A stretch of 64,000 bases of DNA from Kineosporia babensis (GTDB taxonomy: Bacteria > Actinomycetota > Actinomycetes > Actinomycetales > Kineosporiaceae), in NCBI RefSeq assembly GCF_021129305.1, contig NZ_JAJOMB010000004.1, forward strand, positions 372,001 to 436,000, read 5' to 3'. This document shows positions 14,287 to 55,298 of the stretch, in pieces. Position 1 is the first letter of the stretch. Each line of letters opens with the position of its first letter. Both the position numbers and the translations under genes were made by a program. Under the pieces are notes generated by a model that worked only from the letters and a program-made list of their open reading frames with translations, ran no database searches and was not told the origin of the DNA.

Positions 14287-16377
14287 TCAGTCGAGCAGTT
14301 CCCCGGTGGCCATGTCCACCGCGACAGGCTTGTCCGCTATCGCCGTGTCTCCCGGGGCCGGGTTCAGGGTGTCGACCACCGCCTGGGCCACCTTCGGCCC
14401 GACGCCCTGGACCGAGGCGATCGCCTCGACCGAGGCGGTCCGCAGCTTCTTCACCGAGCCGAAGTGCGCCAGCAGCGCCTTCTTCCGGGCCGGACCGAGA
14501 CCGGGCACGGCGTCGAGCTCGCTGGCCGTCATCGCGGTGCTGCGGCGCTGGCGGTGATGGGTGATCGCGAAGCGGTGCGCCTCGTCGCGCACCCGCTGCA
14601 GCAGGTACAGGCCCTCGCTGGAACGCGGCAGGATCACCGGCTGGTCGTCGTCCGGGATCCACACCTCCTCCAGCCGCTTGGCCAGGCCGCACAGGGCCAC
14701 GTTCTGGATGCCGAGCTCACGCATCGCGGCGGCCGCGGCGGCCACCTGGGGAGCGCCGCCGTCGACCACCACCAGGTTGGGGGCGTAGGAGAACTTGCGC
14801 GGGCGACCGGTCTGCGGATCGATCGCGGTGGGCCGGCCCTCGGGCGCCTCGTCGTCGAGAGAGGGTGCCTGGTCGAGGATCTCGCCGGTGGCCGGGTCGG
14901 CCCCGGCGGTGAGCGCGGCGCCAGCCTCCTGCTCGCCGGCAATGGCCTCCTGCTCGCTCAGGAAGCGCCGGAACCGCCGGCTGATCACCTCCCGGATCGA
15001 GGCCACGTCGTCCGAGCTGCCCTCGGCCAGGCTCTTGATCGTGAACTTGCGGTACTCCGGCTTCTTGGCCAGGCCGTCCTCGAAGACCACCATCGAGGCG
15101 ACCACGTTCGAGCCCTGGATGTGCGAGATGTCGTAGCACTCGATCCGCAGCGGCGCCTCGGGCAGGTCGAGCGCCTCCTGGATCTCCTGCAGCGCCTTGG
15201 ACCGGGTGGTCAGGTCGCCCGCCCGGCGGGTCTTGTGCAGGGTGAGCGCCTGCCCGGCGTTGCGGGCCACCGTCTCCATCAGGGTGCGCTTGTCGCCGCG
15301 CTGCGGCACCCGGACCTCGACCCGGGAACCGCGCAGCCCGGACAGCCAGTCCTCCACCTCGCCGAGGGCCGGCGGCTCGTGCGGCACCAGCACCTCGCGC
15401 GGCACCGCCTCACCGTTGGTCTCGCTGCCGCCCTCGCCCCCGGTGTCGCCGTAGACCTGCTGCAGCAGGTGCTCGACCAGGTCGCCGGTGGTGACGTCCT
15501 CCACCTTCTCGACCACCCAGCCGCGCTGGCCCCGGATCCGGCCGCCGCGCACGTGGAACACCTGCACCGCGGCCTCGAGCTCGTCGTCGGCCAGGGCGAA
15601 CACGTCGGCGTCGGTGCCGTCGGGCAGCACCACCGCGTTCTTCTCCATCGCCCGCGAGAGCGCCTGGATGTCGTCGCGCAGCCGGGCCGCCTGCTCGAAC
15701 TCCAGGTCGTGCGAGGCCTGCAGCATGTCGCGCTCCAGGCGCTTGACGTAGCGCTCGGTGCGCCCGCCCATGAAGTCGCAGAAGTCCCCGGCCAGGCGCC
15801 GGTGCTGCTCGGCGTCGACCTTGCCCACGCACGGCGCCGAGCACTTGTCGATGTAGCCCAGCAGGCACGGCCGGCCGATCTGCCCGGCCCGCTTGAAAAC
15901 CCCGTTGCTGCAGGTGCGGACCGGGAACACACGCAGCAGCAGATCCACCGTCTCGCGGATCGCCCAGGCGTGCGCGTAGGGCCCGAAGTACCGCGTGCCC
16001 TTGCGCTTGGCCCCGCGCATCACCTGCACCCGGGGGAACTCCTCGCCCATGGTGACGGCCAGGTACGGGTAGGACTTGTCGTCCCGGTACTTCACGTTGA
16101 ACCGCGGGTCGTACTCCTTGATCCAGGAGTACTCCAGCTGCAGCGCCTCGACCTCGGTGTTCACCGTCGTCCACTCCACCGAGGCGGCGGTGAACACCAT
16201 GGTCTGGGTGCGCGGGTGCAGCCCGGCCGGATCGGCGAAGTACGAGTTCAGCCGCTGCCGCAGGCTCTTGGCCTTGCCGACGTAGATGACCCGCCCGGAC
16301 GAGTCACGGAACCGGTAGACGCCCGGTTGCTCGGGGATGGTTCCGACCGCCGGTCGGTACGTCGATGGATCAGCCAC
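14287..16377 (-). CDS. uvrC: Excinuclease ABC subunit UvrC
   Basis: 696 residues. UvrC makes both incisions around UvrB-marked DNA lesions. Seen in order: the GIY-YIG nuclease ([25 protein letters not shown]), a cysteine-bearing region ([19 protein letters not shown]), a UVR segment, the RNase H-like nuclease with [13 protein letters not shown] and VVDGGAPQV, and a helix-hairpin-helix tail ([18 protein letters not shown]). GTG 16377 is chosen over GTG 16401 because it lies exactly seven bases after a TAAGGT -10 box, predicting a leaderless mRNA. The longer start would lie inside pepN and upstream of that promoter's start site. Confidence 0.97.
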
Positions 16378-16384
16378 GCAAACA

Positions 16385-16407
16385 ACCTTAGGCGCCCCCA
16401 CCGACAG
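16385..16407 (-). promoter_or_regulatory. PafBC/RecA-NDp-type DNA-damage promoter of uvrC
   Basis: On the minus strand it reads CTGTCGGTG, eight bases, then TAAGGT, which fits the mycobacterial RecA-independent damage consensus (tTGTCRGTG-N8-TAnnnT). The uvrC GTG follows seven bases after the -10. Its upstream half lies inside the last codons of pepN. Confidence 0.85.
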
Positions 16408-26834: not shown

Positions 26835-30011
<3,177 letters not shown>

Positions 30012-30018
30012 GACGGAC

Positions 30019-30041
30019 ATGCTAGGTGCCACCACCGACAG
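30019..30041 (-). promoter_or_regulatory. PafBC/RecA-NDp-type DNA-damage promoter of uvrA
   Basis: The minus strand reads CTGTCGGTG, eight bases, TAGCAT, then seven bases to the GTG start. It is a full match to the mycobacterial RecA-independent damage-promoter consensus apart from the first T. It implies a leaderless transcript. Confidence 0.9.
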
Positions 30042-45479: not shown

Positions 45480-47573
45480 TCAGGCGTTGGCGGCCTTCAT
45501 CCCCCTCAGCTCCTTCTTCAGCTCGCGGATCTCGTCGCGCAGCCGGGCCGCCAGCTCGAACTGCAGCTCGGTGGCCGCGGTGTGCATCTGGTCGGTCAGC
45601 TGCTGGATCAGGTCGGCCAGGTCGGTGGCGGGCACGTTCTCCACCCCGGCGGCGCGGGCGGCGCTGCTCATGCCCGGCACCGGGGCCTTGCCCCGGCTGC
45701 GCTGCCGGCCACCGCCACCGATCAGCTCCTCGGTGTCCTCGTCCTCACGGGCGAGCATGTCGGTGATGTCCTGGATCTTCTTGCGCAGCGGCTGCGGGTC
45801 GATGCCGTGCTCGGTGTTGTACGCGACCTGCTTCTCGCGGCGGCGGTTGGTCTCGCCGATCGCGTACTCCATCGAGGGCGTGATCTTGTCGGCGTACATG
45901 TGCACCGCACCGCTGACGTTACGGGCGGCCCGGCCGATGGTCTGGATCAGCGAGGTGGACGAGCGCAGGAAGCCCTCCTTGTCCGCGTCCAGGATGCTGA
46001 CCAGCGACACCTCGGGCAGGTCGAGGCCCTCCCGCAGCAGGTTGATCCCGACCAGCACGTCGAACTCGCCCTTGCGCAGCTCGCGCAGCAGCTCCACCCG
46101 GCGCAGCGTGTCCACCTCGGAGTGCAGGTAGCGCACCCGCACACCCTGCTCGAGCAGGTAGTCGGTGAGGTCCTCGGACATCTTCTTGGTGAGCGTGGTG
46201 ACCAGCACCCGCTCGTCCTTCTCGGCGCGCTCGCGGATCTCGCCCAGCAGGTCGTCGATCTGGCCCTTGGTCGGCTTGACCACGATCTGCGGGTCGATCA
46301 GGCCGGTGGGGCGGATGATCTGCTCGACCACCCCGTCGGCCCGGCCCAGCTCGTACTGCCCGGGGGTGGCCGACAGGTACACCGCCTGGCCGATCCGGTC
46401 GGCGAACTCCTCCCACTTCAGCGGGCGGTTGTCCATCGCGCTGGGCAGCCGGAAGCCGTGGTCGACCAGGGTGCGCTTGCGCGAGGCGTCGCCCTCGTAC
46501 ATCGCGCCGATCTGCGGCACCGTGCTGTGCGACTCGTCCAGCACCAGCAGGAAGTCTTCGGGGAAGTAGTCGAGCAGGCAGTTCGGGGCGCTGCCCTTGG
46601 GCCGGTCGTCCATGTGGAAGGAGTAGTTCTCGATGCCCGAGCAGGACCCGACCTGGCGCATCATCTCGATGTCGTAGGTGGTGCGCATCCGCAGCCGCTG
46701 GGCCTCCAGCAGCTTGCCCTGGCGCTCCAGCTCCTCCAGCCGCTCGGCCAGCTCGACCTCGATCGCCTCGATCGCCCGGTGCATCCGCTCCGGCCCGGCG
46801 ACGTAGTGCGAGGCCGGGAAGATGTACATCTCCTTCTCCTCGCGCACGATCTCGCCGGTGAGCGGGTGCAGCGTGTAGATCCGGTCGATCTCGTCGCCGA
46901 AGAACTCGATCCGGATGGCCAGTTCCTCGTAGACCGGGATGATCTCGACCGTGTCGCCCCGGACCCGGAAGGTGCCGCGGGTGAAGGCCAGGTCGTTGCG
47001 GGAGTACTGCATCTGCACGAACTGGCGCAGCATGTCGTCCCGGTCGATCTGCTGGCCGACCTTCACCGTCTGCATCTGGTCGATGTACTCCTGCGGGGTA
47101 CCCAGGCCGTAGATGCAGGAGACGGTGGCGACCACCACCACGTCGCGCCGGGTGAGCAGCGAGTTGGTGGCCGAGTGCCGCAGCCGCTCGACCTCCTCGT
47201 TGATCGAGGAGTCCTTCTCGATGTAGGTGTCGGTCTGCGGGACGTACGCCTCGGGCTGGTAGTAGTCGTAGTACGAGACGAAGTACTCGACCGCGTTGTT
47301 CGGCAGCAGCTCGCGGAACTCGTTGGCCAGCTGGGCGGCCAGGGTCTTGTTCGGCGCCATGATCAGCGTGGGCCGCTGCACCTGCTCGATCAGCCAGGCG
47401 GTGGTGGCGGACTTACCGGTACCGGTGGCCCCCAGCAGGACGGTGTGCTCGTCCCCCGCCTTGACCCGCTTGGCCAGCTCGGCGATGGCGGCCGGCTGGT
47501 CGCCGCTGGGCTGGTATTCCGAGACCACGGTGAAGGGTGCGACCGTGCGCTTGAGATCGGTGACTGGCCTCAT
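45480..47573 (-). CDS. uvrB: Excinuclease ABC subunit UvrB
   Basis: 697 residues from ATG 47573. UvrB is the helicase-like damage verifier that hands DNA to UvrC. Motifs: Walker [16 protein letters not shown], the beta-hairpin [17 protein letters not shown], the DESH box in [12 protein letters not shown], helicase [11 protein letters not shown] and the C-terminal UVR segment that binds UvrC ([20 protein letters not shown]). The start is defined by a damage promoter whose -10 ends seven bases upstream; the longer frame to 47597 would include promoter DNA. Confidence 0.98.
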
Positions 47574-52541: not shown

Positions 52542-55268
52542 TTAGTGGGCGGCCTCGTGCCACGACTGCCCCACGCCCACCGAGACGTCCAGCGGCACGT
52601 TGAGCTCGGCCGCGCCGGCCATGCCCTCGCGGACCAGGGCCTCGACCTGCTCGCGCTCGCCGGGCCAGACCTCCAGCACCAGTTCGTCGTGCACCTGCAG
52701 CAGCATCCGCGAGCGCAGCCCCTGCTCGCGCAGCTTCTCCTCCACCGCGAGCATGGCCACCTTGACGATGTCGGCCGCCGAGCCCTGGATCGGGGCGTTC
52801 AGGGCCATCCGCTCGGCCATCTCGCGGCGCTGGCGGTTGTCGCTGACCAGGTCGGGCAGGTACCGGCGGCGGCCCAGGATGGTCTCGGTGTAGCCGGTCC
52901 GGCGGGCCTCGTCGACCACGCCGTGCAGGTAGTCGCGCACCCCGCCGAACCGGTCGAAGTAGTCGTCCATCAGGGTCTTCGCCTCGTCGACCGGGATGTT
53001 CAGCTGACGGGACAGGCCGAACGCCGAAAGACCGTACGCCAGGCCGTAGCTCATCGCCTTGATCTTCGAGCGCATCTCGGCGGTGACGTCGGCCGGCTCC
53101 ACCGAGAACACCCGGCTGCCGACGAAACGGTGCAGGTCCTCGCCGGAGCGGAAGGCCTCGATCAGGCCCTCGTCCTGGGAGAGGTGGGCCATGATCCGCA
53201 TCTCGATCTGCGAGTAGTCCGCGGTCAGCAGGCACTCGAAGCCCGGCCCGACCACGAAGGTCTCGCGGATCCGGCGGCCCTCCTCGGTCCGGACCGGGAT
53301 GTTCTGCAGGTTCGGCTCGGTGCTGGACAGCCGCCCGGTGGCCGCGATCGTCTGCAGGTAGGTGGTGTGGATGCGGCCGTCGTCGCCGATCGCCTTGAGC
53401 AGGCCCTCCACCGTCTGGCGCAGCTTGGTGGCGTCCCGGTGGCGCAGCAGGTGAGCCAGGAACGGGTGCTCGGTCTTGGCGAAGAGGTCGGCCAGGGCCT
53501 CGGCGTCGGTGGTGTACCCGGTCTTGGTGCGCTTGGTCTTGGGCATGTCCAGCTCGTCGAACAGCACCACCTGCAGCTGCTTGGGCGAGCCGAGGTTGAT
53601 CTCCTTGCCGATCGCCTCGAACGCCTGCTTGCCCGCGTCCGCCACCGCGGCGGCGAAGTAGCTGTCCAGGTCGCCCAGCGCGTCCTGGTCGATCGCGATG
53701 CCGTGGTGCTCCATCGTGCGCAGCACCCCGAGCAGCGGCAGCTCCACGTCGGTGAGCAGACCGGCCGCGTTGCGCTCGGCCAGGTCGGACTGCAGGGCGC
53801 CCCACAGGTCGATGACGGCGCGGGCCCGGACCATGGCCAGGTCCGCCTCGTCCGGGCCGGAGTCGTCCATGTCGAGGGTGAGCTGCTGGTTGGCCGGGAC
53901 CTCCTCGGCCTTCAGCTGCCGGCCCAGGTGCCGCACCGTGAGGTCGGCCAGGTCGTAGCTGCGCTGGTCGGGCAGGCACAGGTAGGCGGCCAGAGCGGTG
54001 TCACCGATGATCCCCTCGACCGCCAGGCCGCGGTCGGACAGCGCGGTGAGCGGGCCCTTGGCGTCGTGCAGCACCTTGGGCCGGGACCGGTCGGACAGCC
54101 AGGCGGTGACCGCGGCGAGCGCCTCGGCGTCGGCCTCGACCAGATCGACGAAGGCGGCCGGGCCGGGCTTGCCGGGCGACGGCTCGGGGGCCGCGATCGC
54201 GATGCCGGACGCGTCGCCGTGCCCCGCCTTCCAGGTGCCCAGCACGGTGATCCCGACCGCCACGGCCGCGTTCTCGCTCAGCCAGGCGCCCACGGCCGCG
54301 CCGGTGAGCTTCTCGGCAGCCAGGTCGAACCCGCCCTCGGCCTCGGGCTCCGGGGACGCCAGGGTGGCGAACAGTCGCTCGCGCAGCACCCGGAACTCCA
54401 GGCCGTCGAAGACCTGGTGCACCTCTTCCCGGTCCCAGCCGGGCAGCCGCAGCTCGGCCGGGGTCAGCGGCAGCTCGACATCCTTCACCAGGCCGTTGAT
54501 CTGGCGGTTGAGGATGACCTGGGCCAGGTGGTCGCGCAGGCTCTGCCCGGCCTTGCCCTTGATCGAGTCGGCGTTGGCCACCACCCCGTCCAGGTCGCCG
54601 TACAGCCCGATCCACTTGGCCGCCGTCTTCGGCCCGACCCCCGGGATGCCGGGCAGGTTGTCACTGGTCTCGCCGACCAGGGCGGCCAGGTCGGGGTAGC
54701 GCTCGGGCAGCAGGCCGTACTTGGCCTCGACCGCCGCCGGCGTCATCCGGGACAGCTCGGAGACCCCGCGGGTGGGGTAGAGCACCGTGACGTTGTCGCG
54801 CACCAGCTGGAACGTGTCGCGGTCGCCGGAGCAGATCAGCACCTCGTACCCGGCCGCGCCGGCCTGGGTGGCCAGGGTGGCGATGATGTCGTCGGCCTCG
54901 AAGCCGGGCTTCTCCAGCACCGGCACCCGCAGCGCGGCCAGCACCTCTTTGATCAGCGAGACCTGCGGGCCGAACTCGTCCGGCGACTTGGACCGGTTGC
55001 CCTTGTACTCCGCGTACGCCTCGGTGCGGAAGGACTGCCGGGACACGTCGAAGGCGACCGCGACGTGGTCGGGCGACTCGTCGCGCAGGACGTTGATCAG
55101 CATCGAGGTGAAGCCGTACACCGCGTTGGTGAACTGGCCGGTGGCGGTGGCGAAGTTCTCCACCGGCAGCGCGTAGAAGGCGCGGTAGGCCAGGGAGTGA
55201 CCATCGATCAGCAGGAGGCGCGGGCGGGAGGCCTGATCGGCAGCCCCCGAGGTGGTTGTCGGGCTCAC
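52542..55268 (-). CDS. polA: DNA polymerase I
   Basis: 908 residues from GTG 55268. PolA fills excision-repair gaps and removes primers. The N-terminal 5'-3' exonuclease (LLLIDGHSLAYRAFYALP, FDVSRQSFRTEAYAEYKG, GDRDTFQL, VGETSDNLPGIPGVGPKTA), a degenerate central 3'-5' exonuclease domain and the polymerase (ADYSQIEMRIMAHLS, the O-helix region RSKIKAMSYGLAYG and QVHDELVLEV) are present. The start is set by a damage-type promoter with the GTG seven bases past its -10; this discards about 95 residues of the longer open frame (to 55556), which would read through the promoter. Confidence 0.97.
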   Translation of the reverse strand: MSPTTTSGAADQASRPRLLLIDGHSLAYRAFYALPVENFATATGQFTNAVYGFTSMLINVLRDESPDHVAVAFDVSRQSFRTEAYAEYKGNRSKSPDEFGPQVSLIKEVLAALRVPVLEKPGFEADDIIATLATQAGAAGYEVLICSGDRDTFQLVRDNVTVLYPTRGVSELSRMTPAAVEAKYGLLPERYPDLAALVGETSDNLPGIPGVGPKTAAKWIGLYGDLDGVVANADSIKGKAGQSLRDHLAQVILNRQINGLVKDVELPLTPAELRLPGWDREEVHQVFDGLEFRVLRERLFATLASPEPEAEGGFDLAAEKLTGAAVGAWLSENAAVAVGITVLGTWKAGHGDASGIAIAAPEPSPGKPGPAAFVDLVEADAEALAAVTAWLSDRSRPKVLHDAKGPLTALSDRGLAVEGIIGDTALAAYLCLPDQRSYDLADLTVRHLGRQLKAEEVPANQQLTLDMDDSGPDEADLAMVRARAVIDLWGALQSDLAERNAAGLLTDVELPLLGVLRTMEHHGIAIDQDALGDLDSYFAAAVADAGKQAFEAIGKEINLGSPKQLQVVLFDELDMPKTKRTKTGYTTDAEALADLFAKTEHPFLAHLLRHRDATKLRQTVEGLLKAIGDDGRIHTTYLQTIAATGRLSSTEPNLQNIPVRTEEGRRIRETFVVGPGFECLLTADYSQIEMRIMAHLSQDEGLIEAFRSGEDLHRFVGSRVFSVEPADVTAEMRSKIKAMSYGLAYGLSAFGLSRQLNIPVDEAKTLMDDYFDRFGGVRDYLHGVVDEARRTGYTETILGRRRYLPDLVSDNRQRREMAERMALNAPIQGSAADIVKVAMLAVEEKLREQGLRSRMLLQVHDELVLEVWPGEREQVEALVREGMAGAAELNVPLDVSVGVGQSWHEAAH

Positions 55269-55275
55269 GTCTGAC

Positions 55276-55298
55276 ACCCTATGACCCATGTCCGACAG
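55276..55298 (-). promoter_or_regulatory. PafBC/RecA-NDp-like damage promoter of polA (variant)
   Basis: The minus strand reads CTGTCGGAC, eight bases, TAGGGT, then seven bases to the polA GTG. It differs from the other three only in the last two bases of the upstream element (AC for TG). It overlaps the ATG of the divergent thioesterase gene. Confidence 0.75.

Follow-up and report, generated by a model that had tools for sequence, protein, structure and literature searches.

The repair genes uvrA, uvrB, uvrC and polA of the window (the whole 64-kb stretch analysed, C34:372001-436000 of G000, a genome of 9.4 Mb in 89 contigs) share a single promoter design, and their four sites are most probably PafBC-dependent sigma-A promoters of the RecA-NDp class that give leaderless mRNAs, a reading to which we assign a probability of about 0.88. 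Exact matches to CTGTCGG-N10-TANNNT occur four times in the window, all on the - strand and only at these genes, with a GTG or ATG start codon exactly 7 nt past the last T of TANNNT. The identical arrangement that the sequence-only reading had described at the four genes is thus confirmed to the base. The promoters and their genes are:

30019..30041, - strand: uvrA promoter, CTGTCGGTG (-26), N8, TAGCAT (-10)
26835..30011, - strand: uvrA gene, 1058 aa, GTG at 30011, Pfam UvrA domains in the first 497 aa
47581..47603, - strand: uvrB promoter, CTGTCGGTG, N8, TACCGT
45480..47573, - strand: uvrB gene, 697 aa, ATG at 47573
16385..16407, - strand: uvrC promoter, CTGTCGGTG, N8, TAAGGT
14287..16377, - strand: uvrC gene, 696 aa, GTG at 16377, identified by sequence without Pfam
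55276..55298, - strand: polA promoter, CTGTCGGAC, N8, TAGGGT, with the AC variant at positions 8-9
52542..55268, - strand: polA gene, 908 aa, GTG at 55268, Pfam on the first 497 aa

The -26 element, of the TGTCRGTG form, reads TGTCGGTG at uvrA, uvrB and uvrC, with the variant TGTCGGAC at polA, and at each window site exactly 8 bp separate it from the hexamer. Sequence and spacer, both directly observed, resemble the mycobacterial RecA-NDp consensus of TGTCRGTG, N8 and TAnnnT. The mycobacterial form has a T before TGTCRGTG, whereas C occupies this position at 33 of the 65 sites of this genome. When two mismatches are allowed, the window holds 31 matches against a chance mean of 32.7, so the signal resides in the exact sites. 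This kind of promoter is already known from Mycobacterium (Gamulin 2004 and Muller 2018, as cited in PMC8223512), and the window sites are a further instance of it.

The start codons proposed from motif position agree with the aligned N-termini of relatives, and the corrections made in the sequence-only reading stand, giving precise starts for four repair genes. In nearly all relatives the residue aligned with the uvrA GTG at 30011 is among the first four, in support of its corrected start. The position of a RecA-NDp motif likewise revealed a wrong annotated start at M. tuberculosis Rv1955 (PMC2897130). The true start of that gene lies ~50 nt after the transcript start, leaving a leader on the mRNA, whereas the starts here appear leaderless; lexA was reported as leaderless in the same source. 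A second UvrA-like gene is located at G000:C34:173121-173840, with 68% identity over 240 residues.

Counted directly across the genome, with the reversed pattern as control, CTGTCGG-N10-TANNNT occurs 42 times against 5. Allowing spacers of 5-16 yields 61 matches, 42 of which have spacer 10, the remaining 19 being scattered across the 11 other spacers; pooled in this way, the count of 61 against 58 reversed shows no excess, which counts against the PafBC reading and confines the excess to one spacer. TGTCRGTG-N8-TANNNT occurs 65 times against 0 and includes 33 of the 42 CTGTCGG sites. The earlier argument that the exact spacings are unlikely to arise by chance is borne out by these counts, and chance is rejected as their cause, with the caveat of the pooled spacers. 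A repeat or mobile element is also rejected, because similarity among the 42 sites fades ~6 nt upstream of CTGTCGG. Directly upstream of the element, at positions -5 to -1, CAAGA is common in this genome, each position being shared by 24-31 of the 42 sites.

At 24 of these 42 sites the -10 hexamer is followed after 5-8 nt by an ATG or GTG that begins an ORF of at least 90 aa (1, 3, 15 and 5 sites at 5, 6, 7 and 8 nt), and offsets of 3 to 39 nt outside this range account for at most 2 sites each. The hexamer lies 7 nt before the start codon at all four window genes, within the 6-8 nt of a leaderless arrangement. The leaderless design claimed from these genes is upheld in this respect, but the spacing itself is general: among 306 genes called in the relatives' stretches, TANNNT stands 6 nt before the start in 35 and 7 nt in 25, and at any other spacing in at most 6. 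A distance of 6-7 nt is therefore the usual leaderless geometry, and what sets the window sites apart is their -26 element at a fixed 8 bp. Among 46 genes called in the window, 6 have TANNNT at 6-8 nt, and a listing with other limits returns eight leaderless-looking starts, four of which are those of uvrA, uvrB, uvrC and polA. Constitutive leaderless sigma-A promoters, for which TANNNT at 6-8 nt would suffice and CTGTCGG would be incidental, would be compatible with so common a geometry, and also with the uvrC and polA genes of relatives, which mostly lack the -26 element and many of which, by eye, keep TANNNT 6-8 nt before the start. We regard this alternative as improbable, since 42 of the 61 CTGTCGG...TANNNT pairs share one spacer, TGTCRGTG stands at 65 against 0, and three of the four other leaderless-looking window starts (34372 +, 63899 - and 48275 -) show 6-7 mismatches to CTGTCGG at the element's position, the fourth (2433 +) showing 2. 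Leaderless transcripts are described in mycobacteria (PMC3898074), where the -10 hexamer is similarly placed for transcription to start at the start codon; the promoters here differ in carrying an activator element at -26 in addition.

The presence of the putative regulator is observed on contig C67, where two Pup-ligase family genes, two proteasome subunit genes, pafB and pafC lie together. PafB comprises WYL and WCX domains, and PafC comprises HTH_PafC, WYL and WCX domains; NCBIfam has no family for either protein. With both genes present, the CTGTCGG excess confined genome-wide to one spacer and TGTCRGTG at 65 against 0, the proposed fit to the RecA-NDp/PafBC form holds. The resemblance to the mycobacterial system lies in this form, in PafBC with its proteasome locus, and in the genes UvrABC, RecA and RuvA, while the differences are the frequent CAAGA, the 24 of 42 leaderless sites, and the motif at polA and several metabolic genes.

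In published structures the -26 motif is bound by PafB and SigA domain 4 by PafC, and ssDNA acts as the trigger (PMC11804915). UvrABC belong to the M. smegmatis PafBC regulon (PMC8223512), and deletion of pafBC in that species lowers the uvrB transcript by 37% (PMC5656591). From this mycobacterial work we infer PafBC binding, ssDNA activation and the transcript start in the present genome. CTGTCGG(TG/AC), centred near -26, would be read by the helix-turn-helix of PafB, PafC would connect to sigma-A domain 4, and the fixed 8 bp to TANNNT would hold the PafBC complex in register with RNA polymerase. Damage-derived ssDNA would bind PafBC, whereupon the polymerase would start at the start codon's first base or immediately beside it. 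The predicted products are leaderless mRNAs for UvrA, UvrB, UvrC and Pol I, and the regulon would further take in RecA, RuvA, RadA, a PcrA/UvrD-type helicase, RarA, a DEDD exonuclease, DUF222 proteins and several metabolic genes. The -26/-10 pair might instead be read by another regulator, either an alternative sigma factor or a WYL protein other than PafBC, given that PafBC binding is putative here and that the WYL-regulator search covered PafB and PafC. Such a regulator seems unlikely, as form, spacer and part of the gene set agree with the published PafBC regulon and motif excess tracks PafC presence across the phylum.

The SOS-like box, with consensus CGAACNNNNGTTCG, bears on a further alternative, in which LexA/SOS would control the four genes alone or beside PafBC. 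In its favour, a ChIP peak marks Streptomyces venezuelae uvrA as a possible LexA target (PMC9380542), and in mycobacteria both systems are said to act on recA, uvrA and uvrC (PMC8223512). The four window genes resemble those behind the LexA boxes of actinomycetes in being repair genes expected to respond to damage, but no box within 1 mismatch lies between -200 and +120 of their motifs, and 2-mismatch matches in this interval are found at uvrA and uvrB. The recA gene, by contrast, has a perfect box 118 nt upstream of its PafBC-type motif. A missing box does not prove independence of LexA, but LexA control of the four genes is judged very improbable, and PafBC control is the preferred reading.

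The genes behind the sites were identified by Pfam, NCBIfam or, in places, sequence alone, at 58 sites that comprise all 42 CTGTCGG sites and 16 of the other 32 TGTCRGTG sites (16 of the 65 were left unread). In addition to the window genes, the following were recognised:

L006: PcrA/UvrD-type helicase, start 8 nt after the -10
L021: RarA/MgsA, start 7 nt after the -10
L034: DEDD exonuclease with GIY-YIG, start 6 nt after the -10
L008: RecA, 68 nt leader
L022: RuvA, 39 nt
L039: Tex, start 5 nt after the -10
L339 (TGTCRGTG site): RadA, leaderless at 7 nt, above the NCBIfam cut-off

NuoA, PurH, YchF, a Cys/Met PLP enzyme, HisC, a subtilase, an aldo/keto reductase, PIG-L, RDD and other proteins are also encoded behind the 42 sites, and several products there have no family. 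The 16 further sites precede genes for RadA, five DUF222 proteins, PurS, an ECF-type sigma factor, a histidine kinase, an alpha-amylase family protein, a methyltransferase, two helix-turn-helix proteins and three proteins without family. DUF222 proteins account for 8 of the 58 sites read (L011, L019, L037; L337, L344, L346, L348, L350). Behind their motifs, nuoA, purH and hisC (L004, L007, L032) have leaderless starts, and purS (L335) has a 44 nt leader; the motif at these four genes points to possible damage control of metabolism. At L034 (G000:C45:132137-132245), two divergent PafBC-type motifs, 86 bp apart from start to start, face a gene for a small Cys-rich protein on one side and that of the DEDD exonuclease/GIY-YIG protein on the other.

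Most sites read precede metabolic or unknown genes, which counts against the PafBC reading, and clear repair genes are found at ~10 of the 58, with 9 among the 42 exact sites and 1 among the 16 further ones. Motif hits before unrelated genes, named in the sequence-only reading as grounds against it, are thus partly what is seen, unless the regulon is broad; given so mixed a gene set, a regulon, if there is one, would have to be broad. The M. smegmatis PafBC regulon has >150 genes (PMC8223512). Several targets expected of a genome scan were recovered (recA, ruvA, radA, the PcrA/UvrD-type helicase, rarA and the DEDD exonuclease), but the 58 sites read yielded no recognisable dnaE2, adnAB, ligase or ruvC. 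The proposal that the complete excision-and-fill pathway forms one regulon therefore goes beyond what these sites show.

Conservation was directly observed in relatives, and it differs from gene to gene. The upstream regions of uvrB were scanned at 80 named loci (L045-L088 and L089-L124) for TGTC[AG]N followed by N9-11 and TANNNT, and all matches but one have the window spacer and a start at 6-7 nt. Among the nearest loci, 29 have upstream DNA (L045-L075 except L048 and L065), and 20 of these match, 15 as TGTCRGTG; the design is absent in nine: L050, L056, L059, L061, L062, L071 and L072 (Bifidobacterium), L073 (Mobiluncus) and L074 (Corynebacterium). Matches fall to 4 of 13 in L076-L088 (L077, L079, L080, L088) and to 1 of 36 in L089-L124, mostly from other phyla (L119, start 25 nt on). 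Streptomycete uvrB elements read TGTCAGTG in Peterkaempfera and, as a variant, TGTCGTAG in Streptomyces oceani.

The other three genes were compared in one genome from each of 30 families, the window's own included, leaving out 4 uvrA, 2 uvrC and 2 polA loci for short upstream DNA, an uncovered N-terminus or clear paralogy. TGTC[AG]G-N10-TANNNT precedes uvrA in 17 of 26, where the first in-frame start lies at 6-8 nt only in the window's gene and L146; it is at 4 nt in L136, at 3 nt in L150, absent in L142 and at 16-73 nt in the other 12. The motif is found at uvrC in 3 of 28 and at polA in 7 of 28, with a start at 6-7 nt in 6 of these 7. These proportions indicate that uvrB is the widely shared target, while uvrA keeps the motif, usually with a leader. 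The uniformity of all four genes was not seen in the other genomes of this sample.

Two of the matching uvrB loci, L079 and L088, belong to Acidimicrobiia and carry a second spelling of the element, TGTCACAC-N8-TANNNT, with the start at 6-7 nt. Both spellings were counted across the phylum, the totals being copied by hand. In the window's class, TGTCRGTG-N8-TANNNT occurs in all 29 genomes, 774 times against 17 reversed, and exceeds the control by at least 3 in 27. Outside this class, the 110 genomes whose PafC match reaches E<=1e-30 total 178 against 27 with TGTCRGTG and 323 against 7 with TGTCACAC, whereas 98 genomes without a PafC match at 1e-8 show 65 against 71 and 27 against 29. An excess of at least 3 in either spelling is found in 56 of these 110 but in 6 of the 147 genomes where PafC is absent or scores weaker than 1e-20 (Fisher p about 5e-19, taking genomes as independent, ignoring kinship and excluding 10 genomes of intermediate PafC score, of which 2 show an excess). 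Of 148 genomes sampled from the window's class, 145 have PafC at 1e-10 and 141 the motif, and the three genomes without PafC have 1, 1 and 0 matches (controls 1, 0 and 0).

Motif excess thus appears to follow PafC presence across the phylum, with several observations counting against it. In other classes, neither spelling is in excess in 54 of the 110 PafC-bearing genomes, and an excess does occur in 5 genomes that lack a PafC match. Family f82 has PafC in 7 of 8 sampled genomes, yet at most 4 motif matches in each. G320, without a PafC match at 1e-10, carries TGTCGGAT-N8-TACCCT 6 nt before a uvrA ATG, although across its genome the pattern is no commoner than chance (1 against 1). For Streptomyces venezuelae, an initial search suggested that the M. 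smegmatis PafBC motif is not conserved, and the LexA study that reports it left the existence of a PafBC-type response open (PMC9380542). The present counts would add a large actinomycete genome to the mycobacteria in which the PafBC/RecA-NDp response has been studied.

The TGTCACAC spelling is abundant in many genomes of other classes (for example 24 against 1 in G016, 19 against 0 in G263, 15 against 0 in G250, 12 against 0 in G259). In the class sample of 148 it reaches at least 10 only in family f79 (10, 24 and 17 against 0) and elsewhere at most 3 per genome. The sites read (L215-L234) comprise all 12 in G259 and 8 of 15 in G250, and the start lies at 6-8 nt in 12 of these 20. Their products include RadA (above the NCBIfam cut-off), SbcD, a PD-(D/E)XK nuclease, a ComM-like protein, RmuC, DprA, DnaQ-BRCT, a dGTPase-like HD protein (below NCBIfam cut-offs), two DUF222/HNH proteins and two DNA methylases, and also FtsH, FtsY, YajC and transketolase. 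RadA and uvrB stand behind both spellings. The literature search, limited to best matches, found no account of TGTCACAC as a promoter and nothing on PafBC in Acidimicrobiia; the second spelling may already be in print.

A candidate reader of this difference lies in PafB, which was read in 76 genomes and left unread in G127, G133, G168, G312 and G318. A genome was termed an ACAC user where the excess was at least 3 and ACAC matches outnumbered TGTCRGTG matches; among genomes with both spellings, G025, G090 and G175 fall with the ACAC users and G093, G110 and G165 with the other kind. Among ACAC users, 26 of 27 have Arg at the residue before the conserved recognition-helix Arg, as do 5 of the 48 other genomes; the rows were chosen by hand, many for strong motif counts. 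The lone ACAC user without it, G175, has His, and PafB proteins of the other spelling mostly have D, E, N, Q, S, G, K or H. By matching F42, R44, F46 and R48, the residue corresponds to position 43 in A. aurescens numbering. R44 and R48 are the counterparts of R46 and R50 in the M. smegmatis PafB recognition helix, whose change to alanine reproduces the deletion phenotype (PMC6789036).

A PafB tree built without the HTH (75 rows, G284 being dropped as too short) yields 3 independent contrasts on well-supported branches and 5 on all branches, with a median sign-test p of 0.5; with so few, relatedness alone could explain the link between Arg and ACAC. Of the predictions written beforehand, Arg in f79 was found in 3 of 3, but its absence from 13 class neighbours failed in 4 of the 11 readable (G299, G314, G310, G302). 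Arg is also present in G374, fetched alongside but outside the written prediction, and a strict rule equating Arg with ACAC use is rejected. In G299, an Arg carrier without ACAC matches genome-wide, uvrB reads TGTCACAG. Arg looks required yet insufficient for ACAC use, and the link is suggestive, not proven.

We lean towards a PafBC response with at least two promoter spellings of the same geometry, TGTCRGTG in most of the window's class and TGTCACAC in several other classes and f79, the switch going with PafB position 43. Since uvrB retains a leaderless promoter under either spelling, an old damage promoter may have been rewritten together with its reader. If true, the second spelling would make the response searchable where the mycobacterial motif finds nothing, and the two spellings would offer a natural test of how PafB reads DNA.

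DUF222 proteins recur behind both spellings, with an added HNH domain in L228 and L230. G303, G323 and G335 also contain TGTCACAC-N8-TANNNT sites. The small Cys-rich protein of L231, which like the - strand protein of L034 has no Pfam match, resembles the latter by eye.
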